Shown here piece by piece: positions 1,816 to 5,719 of a stretch of 64,000 nucleotides of DNA; within the stretch, counting starts at the first letter, position 1; every line of letters starts with the position of its first letter. A model generated the notes under the pieces. It had not been told where the DNA came from and made no database searches. It saw only the letters and a program-made list of their open reading frames with translations. A program made the position numbers and the translations under genes. The stretch comes from Gottfriedia acidiceleris (GTDB lineage Bacteria > Bacillota > Bacilli > Bacillales > Bacillaceae_G), in assembly GCF_023115465.1 (NCBI RefSeq), contig NZ_CP096034.1, positions 2,914,001 through 2,978,000 on the forward strand, read 5' to 3'.

Positions 1816-3603
1816 TTATGCTCCATCATTAATGAAACTATATTGCGCCATGTACAACTTATAATAATGTCCTTTTAATGCTAATAACTCTTCATGTGTA
1901 CCGCTTTCCTCGACATTTCCATTTCCGATTACCATAATCTTGTCGCAGTCACGAATTGTTGATAATCGGTGGGCAATGACAAACGAAGTACGACCTTCTA
2001 ATAGCTTTTCAATTCCATTTTGGACAAGCTTCTCTGTATGTGTATCGATATTTGAAGTAGCTTCATCTAATATCAAAATTCTAGGATCAGCTAGTAGAGC
2101 ACGAGCAAAAGAGATTAATTGTCTCTGACCTAATGAAAGTCTTGAGCCCCTCTCGTTTACATCCGTATCATACCCATTCTCCATTTTAATAATAAAGTCA
2201 TGAGCATGGACTGCTTTAGCTGCAGCAATTACTTCATCATCTGTAGCATTTAATTTACCGTATCGAATATTTTCCATAATCGATGTTGAGAATAGGAATG
2301 TATCTTGTAGCATAATTCCCATTTGACTTCTAAAAGATTCTAAATCTACTTTTTTAATATCGTTTCCATCTACTAGGATTTCACCTTTTAAAGGATCATA
2401 GAATCGGCTTAACAGTGAAACAATCGTCGTTTTCCCTGCTCCTGTTGCACCTACCAATGCAATTTTTTCACCGGGATTTATTGTGAAATTCACATTTTTT
2501 AATACGGTAGAGTTTTCATCATAACCAAAAGTCACGTTTCTAAACTGAACTTCACCATTAATTCGTCCAATTGGCGGTGCATTTTCTTCACTAATAATTT
2601 CTGGATCAATATCCATTATGTCAAAAATCCGATCCGCTGCGGAGAAGTTTGATATTAATGTATTATAAAAGTTAGATAAGTTCATAATTGGACGCCAGAA
2701 CATACCAATATACATTGAAAATGCGATTAATGTTCCGACTTCAATATCTTGACTAGTTACAAGCTTATATCCAACATAAAATACAATTACAGTTCCAACA
2801 CCCCATGAAAGCTCAACTAATGGCCAGAAGAAGTCATTCATTTTTACTGCTCTCATAAATGAGCCCATTAATTCAGAAACCTTTTCTTTGAAGTCTTTTT
2901 CTTTATCTTTTTCTTTCGCAAAGGATTGAACCACTTTTATTCCTGAAAAATCTTCATGTATAAACGCAATTAGATTTGAACGTTTCTTTCTATAATCATC
3001 CCATCTTTTACGTGCACGTGTTTCAATATAAAACATCGCAACTGCTAAAAATGGAAGAATTGATACTGATGCGATTGCAAGTTTTACATTTAAAATAAAC
3101 ATTACGACAGTAACACAAACTAAGCTTAGTAATTCCGGAATTAATGTCTGAATACTTTGGTTGAATAAATTTTGGAGAGCACTAATATCCCCCATTACAC
3201 GAGCCAAAATTTTTCCTACTGGTCGATTATCAAAAAACGTAAATGATAGTTTTTGAATATGTGTGTAAAGCTCATGACGAATATTTACTAAAATATTATT
3301 CGTAACGGAGCTAATCATCGTCCAACGTATTTTTGAGGCAATCATCGCTAAGAAATTTAGTGCTAATAGTACAGCTCCAATCATTATGAGCCCTTTTACA
3401 TCGTGATTTTTAATATTTGTATCAATTGCTACCTTTAGTAAATATGGGTTTAATATCCCAATTACCATTACAAATAACATTAAACAAATAACAGTAAATG
3501 TTTTTAATTTATATGGTTTTAAATATGTCCCGAGCCTAAGAATAAGCTCGGTTTTACTCCGATTTAGTTGGTCTTCATCACGATTGATCGTATTTTGTGC
3601 CAT
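1816..3603 (-). CDS. ABC exporter half-transporter, consensus-ATPase subunit (TM288/BmrD type)
   Basis: 595 aa: an N-terminal six-helix type IV exporter domain (about 30-325) and a C-terminal nucleotide-binding domain (about 350-590). Walker A is GATGAGKTT, the signature is LSLGQ (consensus LSGGQ), Walker B is ILILDEATS with the catalytic Glu present, and the H-loop His is present (VIAHRLST). The ATG overlaps the stop of the upstream gene by one base (TAATG), so translation is coupled. The upstream partner has Asp in place of the catalytic Glu, so the two proteins should form a heterodimer with one degenerate ATP site, as in BmrCD, LmrCD and TM287/288. Likely substrate: drugs or other amphipathic compounds. 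The leader-peptide attenuator upstream suggests antibiotic-inducible expression. Subfamily (BmrCD, YfiBC or YknUV) is not decided. Confidence 0.85.
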   Translation of the reverse strand: MAQNTINRDEDQLNRSKTELILRLGTYLKPYKLKTFTVICLMLFVMVIGILNPYLLKVAIDTNIKNHDVKGLIMIGAVLLALNFLAMIASKIRWTMISSVTNNILVNIRHELYTHIQKLSFTFFDNRPVGKILARVMGDISALQNLFNQSIQTLIPELLSLVCVTVVMFILNVKLAIASVSILPFLAVAMFYIETRARKRWDDYRKKRSNLIAFIHEDFSGIKVVQSFAKEKDKEKDFKEKVSELMGSFMRAVKMNDFFWPLVELSWGVGTVIVFYVGYKLVTSQDIEVGTLIAFSMYIGMFWRPIMNLSNFYNTLISNFSAADRIFDIMDIDPEIISEENAPPIGRINGEVQFRNVTFGYDENSTVLKNVNFTINPGEKIALVGATGAGKTTIVSLLSRFYDPLKGEILVDGNDIKKVDLESFRSQMGIMLQDTFLFSTSIMENIRYGKLNATDDEVIAAAKAVHAHDFIIKMENGYDTDVNERGSRLSLGQRQLISFARALLADPRILILDEATSNIDTHTEKLVQNGIEKLLEGRTSFVIAHRLSTIRDCDKIMVIGNGNVEESGTHEELLALKGHYYKLYMAQYSFINDGA

Positions 3604-5339
3604 TAGACCACCCCGCTTTCTACTGTTTCAAAATCTTTGAATTGTTCTTCGTAGACTTCAAAGTATCTTCCTTTTTTATCAAGTAATTGTTTATGATTTC
3701 CTTTTTCAACTATTTCTCCATTTTCAACAAATAAAATTACATCGGCATTTTTTACTGCTGAAATTCGGTGTGCAATGATAAATGTTGTACTATGTGAGAA
3801 ACGTTTATTTAAATTGTGTAATAATTCATACTCCGTTTCCATATCTAATGCAGAAGTTGCATCATCTAAAATTAGGATTGGAGCTTTTCTTAATAATGCG
3901 CGAGCAATTGATATACGTTGTTTTTGCCCACCAGATAAACCAATTCCTCGTTCACCAATTTCCGTGTTGAAACCTTCTTCTAGATCTTCAATAAAGTCTA
4001 AACAACAAGCAATACGGCAAGCCTCACGGATTTCATCCATTGTAGCTTCTGGGTTTCCTAGTTTAATATTGTTTTCAATCGTATCTGAAAAAAGGAATGT
4101 ATCTTGAGAAACTAGTGACATATTTTGACGTAGAGATGTTAGATTAAAATCTTTCACATTAACGCCATCTACTAGTACCTCTCCTTCAGCAACATCGTAT
4201 GAGCGACCAATCAGATGAAGAATTGAAGATTTCCCAGCACCTGTCGTTCCCATAATCGCTACTTTACTACCACTTGGAATATATAGATTAATATCTTTTA
4301 AGACAATTTCATCATTGTATTTAAAGCTTACATTTTTATATTCCACTGAACCGTCAACTAGATTAGGTGTATATGCACCTTCTTTGTTTTCAATTTCTGT
4401 TTTACGATCTAAAATTTCAAAAATCTTCTTCGCAGAAGCTTGGTTTTTAGAAAGTACGTCTGTTAACCAGCCTAACATTCTCATCGGCCAAATTAAGTTC
4501 CAAATATATCCACTAAATGCAACTAGTTCACCTAGTGTCATACTATTTTGTAAAACGAAATATCCACCAATAATAATCATTGCGACAAGCGCAATATTTG
4601 TTAAAAATTCAATATTAGGAAAATATTTACGCATTATTTTTGCTTGAGACATATTTAAATCATAATAACCACGATTCATTTTCAAAAATTTCAAAGTCTC
4701 ATGCTTTTCTCTAGCAAATGCTTTAACCAATCTTACACCTGCAATATTTTGCTGAGCTGTTGTATTGATTTCAGCTGTATGGTCACTTATTTTACCGTAA
4801 CCTTTATTAAGTAAGCGATTTAAACGCGTCCCCATATAACCAATTGGGATCATAATTGCTAAACAGATTAATGCTAACTTCCAATTAATTACAAATAAGA
4901 TCACTGTACTAACAGTAAAATAAATAATATTTTCAACAAACAATCTTAGTCCAAACGCAATTGTTTGCCAAATATTTTCCACATCTTCATTAATTCTCGA
5001 AAGTAATTCACCCGTATTCATTGAGTCAAAATACTTAAATTCAAAACTCTGTATATGCTTGAACATATCATTTTTTATATCTTCATGTACCTCAGAGCTT
5101 ACTAAGTCATATAGATATTCTTTTACATAACCAAATATTGATTTGATAATTGTGACACCTATAATACCTCCAATAACTGGTAGGACGACAGATGCTTTTC
5201 CTTTCGTAATACCATCATCGATTAAAATCATTTGTAAATAAGGAATTAAGTGATCCACACCTATTACTAAAACCATTGAGATTGAACCAATAATAAATGA
5301 AAGCTTATGCCTAAAGACATATTTTAAAATTCGAGACAA
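3603..5339 (-). CDS. ABC exporter half-transporter, degenerate-ATPase subunit (TM287/BmrC type)
   Basis: 578 aa from a TTG start with GGGAGG 7 nt upstream. Six membrane helices (about 10-300) are followed by a nucleotide-binding domain: Walker A GTTGAGKSS, a canonical LSGGQ signature, and Walker B ILILDDATSALD. The residue after the Walker B Asp is Asp rather than Glu, the hallmark of the non-hydrolysing site in heterodimeric exporters. The degenerate site would pair this Walker A/B with the altered LSLGQ of the downstream subunit, so the two defects fall in the same composite site. First gene of a two-gene operon. A ~300-nt leader (5340-5650) with a short peptide gene and two terminators precedes it. 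Confidence 0.85.
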   Translation of the reverse strand: MSRILKYVFRHKLSFIIGSISMVLVIGVDHLIPYLQMILIDDGITKGKASVVLPVIGGIIGVTIIKSIFGYVKEYLYDLVSSEVHEDIKNDMFKHIQSFEFKYFDSMNTGELLSRINEDVENIWQTIAFGLRLFVENIIYFTVSTVILFVINWKLALICLAIMIPIGYMGTRLNRLLNKGYGKISDHTAEINTTAQQNIAGVRLVKAFAREKHETLKFLKMNRGYYDLNMSQAKIMRKYFPNIEFLTNIALVAMIIIGGYFVLQNSMTLGELVAFSGYIWNLIWPMRMLGWLTDVLSKNQASAKKIFEILDRKTEIENKEGAYTPNLVDGSVEYKNVSFKYNDEIVLKDINLYIPSGSKVAIMGTTGAGKSSILHLIGRSYDVAEGEVLVDGVNVKDFNLTSLRQNMSLVSQDTFLFSDTIENNIKLGNPEATMDEIREACRIACCLDFIEDLEEGFNTEIGERGIGLSGGQKQRISIARALLRKAPILILDDATSALDMETEYELLHNLNKRFSHSTTFIIAHRISAVKNADVILFVENGEIVEKGNHKQLLDKKGRYFEVYEEQFKDFETVESGVV

Positions 5340-5400
5340 ATTTATACCTCCCTTGTATCAATTAACCTAACTCTACACAGCCCTCCACTTTTTTTGACAA

Positions 5401-5438
5401 TAAAAAGGCCATGGGAATATTTACCATCCCCCATGGCC
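5401..5438 (-). terminator. Second attenuator hairpin before the ABC exporter
   Basis: A perfect 9-bp stem GGCCATGGG / CCCATGGCC is followed on the minus strand by TTTTTA. It lies between the leader peptide and the exporter gene and so must be read through. Its 3' arm can also pair with the 5' arm of the first hairpin (shared CCATGG core), giving mutually exclusive folds. Confidence 0.8.
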
Positions 5439-5490
5439 ATAAAGAAACGTTTCGCCCAAAAACAAATAAATGAATCATTTATTTTTGGCA

Positions 5491-5523
5491 CAAAAAAGCC
5501 ATAGGTAATATAAACCCATGGCT
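5491..5523 (-). terminator. First attenuator hairpin before the ABC exporter
   Basis: AGCCATGGGT pairs with ACCTATGGCT (one G-U) and is followed by TTTTTTG on the minus strand, 25 nt after the leader-peptide stop codon. A further A/T-only palindrome (AAATAAATGA / TCATTTATTT) lies between the two terminators at 5464-5484. Confidence 0.8.
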
Positions 5524-5547
5524 AGATCGTCAATTGAAATCTAAATT

Positions 5548-5637
5548 TCAACGTGGTCCGTCCTGCGTAGAGATAGGGTTCATAATCATTATGAAATTTT
5601 GTGATGATTCACAGTTAATTTTTCTTACAATCATCAT
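5548..5637 (-). CDS. Leader peptide of the ABC exporter operon (BmrB-like)
   Basis: A 29-codon ORF starts ATG ATG with AAGGAGG 9 nt upstream and ends TGA at 5548. The peptide begins MMIVRKINCESS and ends MNPISTQDGPR. It is followed at once by two intrinsic terminators and then the exporter genes. This is the layout of ribosome-mediated attenuation known for B. subtilis bmrB-bmrCD, where drug-stalled ribosomes on the leader prevent terminator formation. What is seen: a ribosome site, an ORF and terminators. What is inferred: that stalling in the C-terminal codons (Pro, Gly-Pro-Arg) controls the first hairpin. Confidence 0.75.
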   Translation of the reverse strand: MMIVRKINCESSQNFIMIMNPISTQDGPR

Positions 5638-5719
5638 GTTAACCTACCTCCTTCTTATTTGATATTCTTATCATATACGAGTGGACTTTAAAATGTCAAA
5701 CTATTTTTAATAATTTTAT

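Follow-up and report, generated by a model that had tools for sequence, protein, structure and literature searches.

Attenuators in front of ABC exporters are known already. Bacillus subtilis bmrB-bmrCD has a 53-codon leader open reading frame (ORF) with the terminator inside it and is induced by chloramphenicol, erythromycin, and lincomycin (PMC4191407). In Streptococcus pneumoniae, a transcriptional attenuator stands before the ABC exporter patAB, according to the title of the report (PMC4319486), and a survey of premature terminators contains 205 ABC-transporter candidates (PMC2965389). An anti-antiterminator, an antiterminator, and a terminator act by the same logic in the vmlR leader of B. 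subtilis, and by a closely similar one in cplR of Clostridioides difficile, as far as the cited portions describe them. The vmlR leader, whose peptide is MIN, depends on ribosomes being arrested while they initiate (PMC9226507), and the cplR leader is induced by retapamulin and lincomycin (PMC10201436).

Here, we analyze the region upstream of two ABC half-exporter genes in a stretch of 64,000 nucleotides from Gottfriedia acidiceleris (hereafter, the window), where six RNA segments with alternative pairings probably form a ribosome-mediated transcription attenuator. Like bmrB-bmrCD in the part of the report cited, it has a leader ORF upstream of an ABC exporter of the heterodimeric type, with candidate anti-antiterminator, antiterminator, and terminator; unlike it, the ORF has 29 codons, two terminators (T1 and T2) lie outside the ORF, and the Shine-Dalgarno sequence (SD) of the leader itself would be the first strand (PMC4191407). 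The resemblance to bmrB-bmrCD proposed in the original prediction, which was made from the sequence alone, thus extends to the regulatory logic and stops at the place of the terminator and at the exporter, which did not rank closest to BmrCD among solved structures. With vmlR, the locus would share a start-held ribosome that prevents the anti-antiterminator and so leads to the antiterminator, the peptide beginning M-I-N there and M-L/F-N here; as described in the cited portion, vmlR differs in its three-codon ORF, its single terminator, the ABC-F gene downstream, and an antiterminator strand outside any long ORF (PMC9226507). The cplR leader also combines a leader ORF, concealed in a 5′ hairpin, with a terminator, but that ORF is the three-codon MRI, the terminator conceals the cplR SD, the gene is of the ABC-F type, and tandem terminators are not among the features described in the cited portion (PMC10201436). 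Three-codon upstream ORFs of the vmlR/cplR type were not found among the leaders examined here, whose ORFs span 25–39 codons. The tandem attenuators of Salmonella mgtCBR share leader ORFs and more than one attenuation step with this locus and are set apart, by the description in the part cited, by two ORFs and other genes (PMC3641672). The Gottfriedia leader was not found in the cited portion of the premature-terminator survey (PMC2965389), and among the matches listed in a search of open-licence papers, none described this leader or antitermination relayed between tandem terminators.

Results

Layout of the locus

All elements lie on the minus strand, in the order promoter, SD, leader ORF, T1, A/T-rich hairpin, T2, and the two half-exporter genes. 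The attenuator elements that had been predicted at 5395-5655 are all present, although the prediction omitted their strand. A sigma-A type promoter (TTGACA at 5699-5694 and TATGAT at 5675-5670, spacer of 18 nt, 11 of 12 consensus matches) precedes the leader, and both boxes were recognized by eye in 13 Gottfriedia leaders. The leader ORF (5548-5637; 29 codons, ATG start, peptide MMIVRKINCESSQNFIMIMNPISTQDGPR, from the ORF list and its translation) follows a strong SD that reads AAGGAGGTAGG; we term this SD (AGGAGGTAGG, 5643-5652) segment 1, and its putative pairing partner inside the ORF segment 2. The exporter occurs in the genome of the window and in 12 others of the genus, and the leader ORF, T1, and T2 accompany it in all 13. 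The predicted 29-codon leader with its excellent ribosome site and the two intrinsic terminators with a CCATGG core are borne out.

T1 (segments 3 and 4; 5497-5523, -15.0 kcal/mol) begins 24 nt past the leader stop codon and is followed by five T; segment 3, GGGTTTATA, occupies 5517-5509 within it. T2 (segments 5 and 6; 5405-5440, -19.5 kcal/mol) likewise ends in a run of five T. A simple terminator scan of 2 kb returned three sites where 0.6 were expected, namely T1 and two near 4590. T2 was not among them and came to light in a separate hairpin search. The third, A/T palindrome of the original prediction exists between T1 and T2 (5456-5488), but it does not belong to the layout common to all leaders: its sequence varies among Gottfriedia, and it is absent from clostridial leaders. 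As a whole, the RNA from 5663 to 5340 folds with -100 kcal/mol (z = -7.15), and none of 100 dinucleotide shuffles was as stable.

Downstream, an SD (AAGGGAGGT, 5346-5354) precedes half-exporter A (3603-5339, 578 aa, TTG start), which is followed by half-exporter B (1816-3603, 595 aa), all on the minus strand. In A, the Walker B motif is followed by D (ILILDDATS, ILILDDATSALD), making a degenerate site, whereas B carries the catalytic E in a canonical ILILDEATS. A D-for-E degenerate site in one partner is a pattern of heterodimeric exporters. The best profiles are MsbA/multidrug-like; none of the best 25 NCBIfam profiles per protein (which include MsbA, SmdAB, and bacteriocin exporters) reaches its curated cut-off. 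When ranked among solved structures, a comparison narrower than a full orthology test, subunit B matched TM_0288 with 426 bits and the BmrD/YheH chain with 349 bits, and no YheI chain was among the best 60 of 197 structure matches of subunit A.

The leader ORF is kept open across genomes

For comparison between genomes, 47 distinct condensed leaders were reduced to 44 and, by removal of near duplicates, to 36 (L numbers denote loci and their leaders, G numbers genomes). L030 (contig start) and L049 (contig shared with L011) were left out; manual placement was used for the leader start of L032 and for the terminators of L032, L033, L040, L044, L048, and L094. Since a search by sequence pattern can only return leaders that contain AGGAGGTAGG and CCTRYCTC, statements on the SD refer to the 38 leaders found through the protein. 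The frame of the leader ORF is open through segment 2 in all 36 leaders, while shuffles predict 0.096 per leader. Thus, translation of the leader probably matters for the switch.

Predicted pairings of segment 2 with T1 and with the SD

Leader comparison delimits segment 2 as TATGAACCC-TATCTC (5570-5584) inside the leader ORF. Two stretches of it that overlap have different partners, T1 for the 5′ part (5584-5576) and the SD for the 3′ part (5577-5570). The pairing 2:3 joins AATAGCCC (here ATGAACCC) to the 5′ arm and loop of T1, GGGCTATT (here GGGTTTAT). In a MAFFT alignment of the 36 leaders that was not fitted to the pairing, 92.3% of 247 cells are paired, as opposed to 28-50% in slid registers. 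This pairing covaries: 22 cells are altered on both sides versus 6.8 in shuffles, and the covariation score is 0.281 versus 0.140 (each 0/500 shuffles), while the number of further pair types was not significant (75/500 shuffles). It is also specific to each genome. Segment 2 forms 8.25 of nine pairs with its own T1 and 7.15 when T1s are permuted between genomes (0/20000). At least eight pairs are formed by 30 of 36 own combinations and by 452 of 1260 foreign ones, which reach this number because the segments are alike between relatives. As the permutations for 2:3 and 4:5 ignore relatedness, we added a comparison with the three nearest relatives, in which the own 2:3 combination was better in 28 leaders, worse in seven, and tied in one (Wilcoxon p = 1.8e-5). 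Pairing of segment 2 with T2, the control, was null both in permutations (14283/20000) and against nearest relatives (p = 0.61), and we rejected it. The exceptions in 2:3 are L047, L080, and L101, with six of nine pairs, and L036, L037, and L100, with seven; by energy, 2:3 is almost absent from L080 (-1.5).

By sequence comparison, then, the candidate antiterminator 2:3 both covaries and is genome-specific, and its covariation together with the T1 energies supports a mutually exclusive antiterminator and terminator. The original prediction had overlooked this pairing of the 3′ part of the leader ORF with T1, which appears to be the main antiterminator, and its apparent competitor, the leader SD.

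In the competing pairing 1:2, CCTATCTC in the 3′ part of segment 2 pairs with GAGGTAGG of the SD. It keeps one register in 34 of 36 leaders, including one that has a mismatch. The pairing is irregular in the other two, L035 and L047, of which L047 shows a compensated change in a different register. Exchanges that keep the pairing (A-U/G-U and U-G/C-G/U-A) occur, and 1:2 hardly covaries. It is not genome-specific (1084/20000 permutations; p = 0.37 against nearest relatives), as expected because the SD is nearly invariant: GGAGGTAGG is exact in 34 of the 38 protein-found leaders (exceptions L032, L035, L043, and L047), and of 97 other GGAGG sites upstream of long ORFs, not one continues with TAGG. 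The case for 1:2 as a candidate anti-antiterminator, which would hide the ribosome site, therefore comes from conservation, with little covariation.

A possible link between the two terminators

Arm swapping between the terminators, an early suggestion for this locus, corresponds to 4:5, the pairing of the T1 3′ arm with the T2 5′ arm. It fits better within genomes than between them (0/20000 permutations) and, among 34 leaders, better with the own partner than with those of nearest relatives in 26 and worse in eight (p = 5e-5). Because both hairpins are self-complementary, this fit equals a likeness of T1 and T2 within each genome, and duplication or conversion between them could add to the signal. 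Some leaders depart from the scheme, since L047 and L050 have one terminator, and T1 and T2 are unlike in L100 and L101.

Stepwise folding of the Gottfriedia leader, in which a stretch of our choice was barred from pairing to represent the ribosome, gave two outcomes: (i) with free RNA or with a ribosome at the stop codon, 1:2, T1, and T2 form, the OFF state, and a ribosome over segment 2 likewise leaves T1 and T2; and (ii) with the SD and first codons covered, 2:3 forms (8.2 pairs) once the T1 5′ arm is out, and when 2:3 is held, 4:5 forms (8.7 pairs) as the T2 5′ arm emerges, compared with 0 in the absence of 2:3. Of the 34 leaders with a T2, 31 could be placed for folding across genomes; with the T1 5′ arm masked, 4:5 reached at least five pairs before the T2 3′ arm was made in 30 of these 31. 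At equilibrium, RNA that extends to the end of T1 favors T1 over 2:3 by 6.6 kcal/mol, also when the SD is covered. Once T2 has been transcribed completely as well, it forms in Gottfriedia and in 16 of the 31 genomes, compared with 14 for 4:5. Since equilibrium favors T1 and often T2, the switch must be kinetic and act during transcription.

Alternatively, the attenuator could be the same with T2 as a mere backup, the likeness of T1 and T2 stemming from gene conversion or from a duplication that chance has preserved. The formation of T2 at equilibrium after T1 is lost is consistent with a backup, as are the two leaders with one terminator, the two with an unlike T2, and the fact that 4:5 complementarity is indistinguishable from the likeness of two self-complementary hairpins. 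Against a mere backup stands the better fit of 4:5 within a genome than with nearest relatives; moreover, an unconditional T2 would shut off the exporter at all times. We regard T2 as a mere backup as unlikely, if still worth serious thought, and favor T2 as part of the switch: going by the sequences, 4:5 could pass antitermination on from the first terminator to the second.

Peptide ends and the presumed signal

What would hold the ribosome? The QDGPR end of the leader peptide had been proposed as a drug sensor, so that peptide-specific arrest near the C-terminus would trigger the switch. QDGPR is indeed kept in 12 of 13 Gottfriedia leaders, with QDCPR in the 13th, but it is restricted to this genus: the 36 leaders have 34 different endings and three of them (L048, L100, and L101) read segment 2 in another frame. 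In the model, moreover, both terminators form whether the ribosome sits over segment 2 or has reached the stop codon. Conservation of QDGPR can also be explained by a pairing of the leader 3′ end (CTCTACGCA...CCAC) with a segment 3′ of T2 that is found only in Gottfriedia (5364-5389, minus strand). Arrest at QDGPR is thus a very improbable trigger.

The pairing with the post-T2 segment reaches -26.8 to -33.8 kcal/mol in seven Gottfriedia leaders, and part of the segment is a degenerate copy of segment 1. A change in the segment is matched in L014, and one in L010 lengthens the pairing. Across 20 leaders, three of them from Gottfriedia, permutation gave 58/20000; the 17 clostridial leaders alone gave 7227/20000, and we rejected the pairing as a general trait and retain it as a putative trait of Gottfriedia only.

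The start of the peptide is conserved as M-L/F-N. Residue 2 is L or F in 27 of 36 leaders versus 11 of 116 other ORFs and residue 3 is N in 19 of 36 versus 9 of 116, an enrichment inflated by kinship among the leaders. These first codons suggest arrest just after initiation, as in vmlR. Because segment 1 is identical with the SD, covering it would take a ribosome stopped right at the start or a line of ribosomes backed up to that point. For this reason, drugs that act on initiation or the first peptide bonds (lincosamides, pleuromutilins, streptogramin A, and perhaps phenicols) would be the inducers we infer by analogy.

An attenuator of the trp or ilv leader type, answering amino-acid starvation, would follow the same 1:2, 2:3, and 3:4 logic and would also keep the leader ORF open. 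However, inspection of the 36 leader peptides by eye revealed no conserved run of a single codon, and the regulated genes are an exporter with MsbA/multidrug-like best profiles; starvation control is therefore highly implausible. We retain a drug as the likely signal, on the analogy with known leaders.

Distribution and origin

A protein search recovered exporters 57-67% identical, mostly in named Clostridium, and every clostridial locus with enough upstream DNA (25/25) has one terminator or more in addition to the SD, the leader ORF, and segment 2. No such leader was seen in the upstream stretch inspected for L052-L055, whose exporters are homologues at 37-40% identity; L052-L054 were inspected as sequence and L055 by pattern check only. 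A pattern of SD plus segment 2 matched 35 of 206 genomes from the family of Clostridium gasigenes, and the reversed pattern matched none. The 35 are a lower bound, since the exact pattern misses known leaders: it matched three of six genomes in a separate check, and G418 was missed in the family scan. Of these 35 matches, 33 precede the same exporter, 17 newly recognized by BLASTP (in L087 over only 123 residues of a short frame) and 16 on contigs already found by protein; the others are L084, at a contig end, and L109, a 23S rRNA. In 149 genomes across the phylum, the pattern matched the genome of the window and one site in G100, compared with three matches of the reversed control.

Among 61 genomes of the order, 35 match the exporter at 1e-120, but only the two Gottfriedia exceed 42% identity. 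In the exporter tree, the closest neighbors of Gottfriedia are two metagenome sequences from clostridia (support 99/90); both belong with it to a clade of 31 that is clostridial apart from Gottfriedia (support 99/98), and eight Bacillales sequences are placed outside. From this nesting and the low identity (at most 42%) of the other Bacillales matches, exporter and leader appear to have been acquired horizontally, and the simplest reading seems to be that leader and exporter moved together from clostridia into the Gottfriedia ancestor. If true, joint transfer would show that attenuator switches travel with their pumps. Carriage of the exporter on plasmids was rejected, all eight records being less than 60% identical.

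Could the leader instead be an independent small RNA, or a pair of unregulated tandem terminators, with the exporter transcribed otherwise? A short RNA ending in terminators would fit, as would weak sub-threshold matches to small RNAs of Rfam 15: the leader region of the window gave sub-threshold matches only, with no family at gathering score. Membership of Qrr, ncr952, ncr1575, and others was rejected, all being far under threshold, and 15 related loci gave no match. Against a small RNA or idle terminators stand the covarying antiterminator, the conserved ORF with its SD, and the fixed position before one exporter family, and we give this explanation next to no weight. Instead, the comparison of ORF, T1, T2, and 2:3 supports the predicted attenuator, whose leader ORF precedes an ABC exporter.

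Discussion

The leader ORF, T1, T2, 2:3, and the genome specificity of 4:5 emerge from sequence comparison; building on them, we infer an order of events with kinetic trapping and a relay, in which drugs that stall ribosomes early would be the signal and drug export the outcome. By default, without a ribosome or with one past the leader, the SD (segment 1) would pair with segment 2, T1 and T2 would form, and transcription would halt before the exporter genes. With a ribosome held on the SD and first codons by a drug that acts during initiation or shortly afterwards, segment 1 would be covered, and the freed segment 2 would capture the T1 5′ arm as it emerges and block T1. The released T1 3′ arm would then capture the T2 5′ arm, and RNA polymerase would pass both terminators.

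Whether this arrangement makes a new attenuator family, with the SD as first strand, capture of a T1 strand disarming T2, and tandem terminators as one unit that answers a ribosome held at the start codon, is in our judgment evenly poised. If it does, known attenuators gain a family whose leaders probably sense drugs and vary enough in nature for compensatory tests of each pairing. The terminator relay, if true, would explain a low background together with the joint switching of two terminators in series.

Several clostridial loci carry further small ORFs between T2 and the exporter, seen by eye. Eight (L029, L030, L031, L034, L038, L041, L043, and L048) have a second ORF of four codons (e.g., MFKK, MSKK, MSNN, MYNK), preceded by an SD-like stretch; this ORF may act as an additional sensor that controls translation. 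In L036, L037, L039, L042, and L051, a conserved nine-codon ORF (e.g., MENGDLKSG) follows T2 behind AGGAGG, possibly another layer of control. Finally, the 480 bases upstream of the exporter in Clostridium hydrogeniformans (L044) apparently contain, again by eye, two tandem leader ORFs, with SPIF and NPTF at the segment 2 position, followed by three hairpins.
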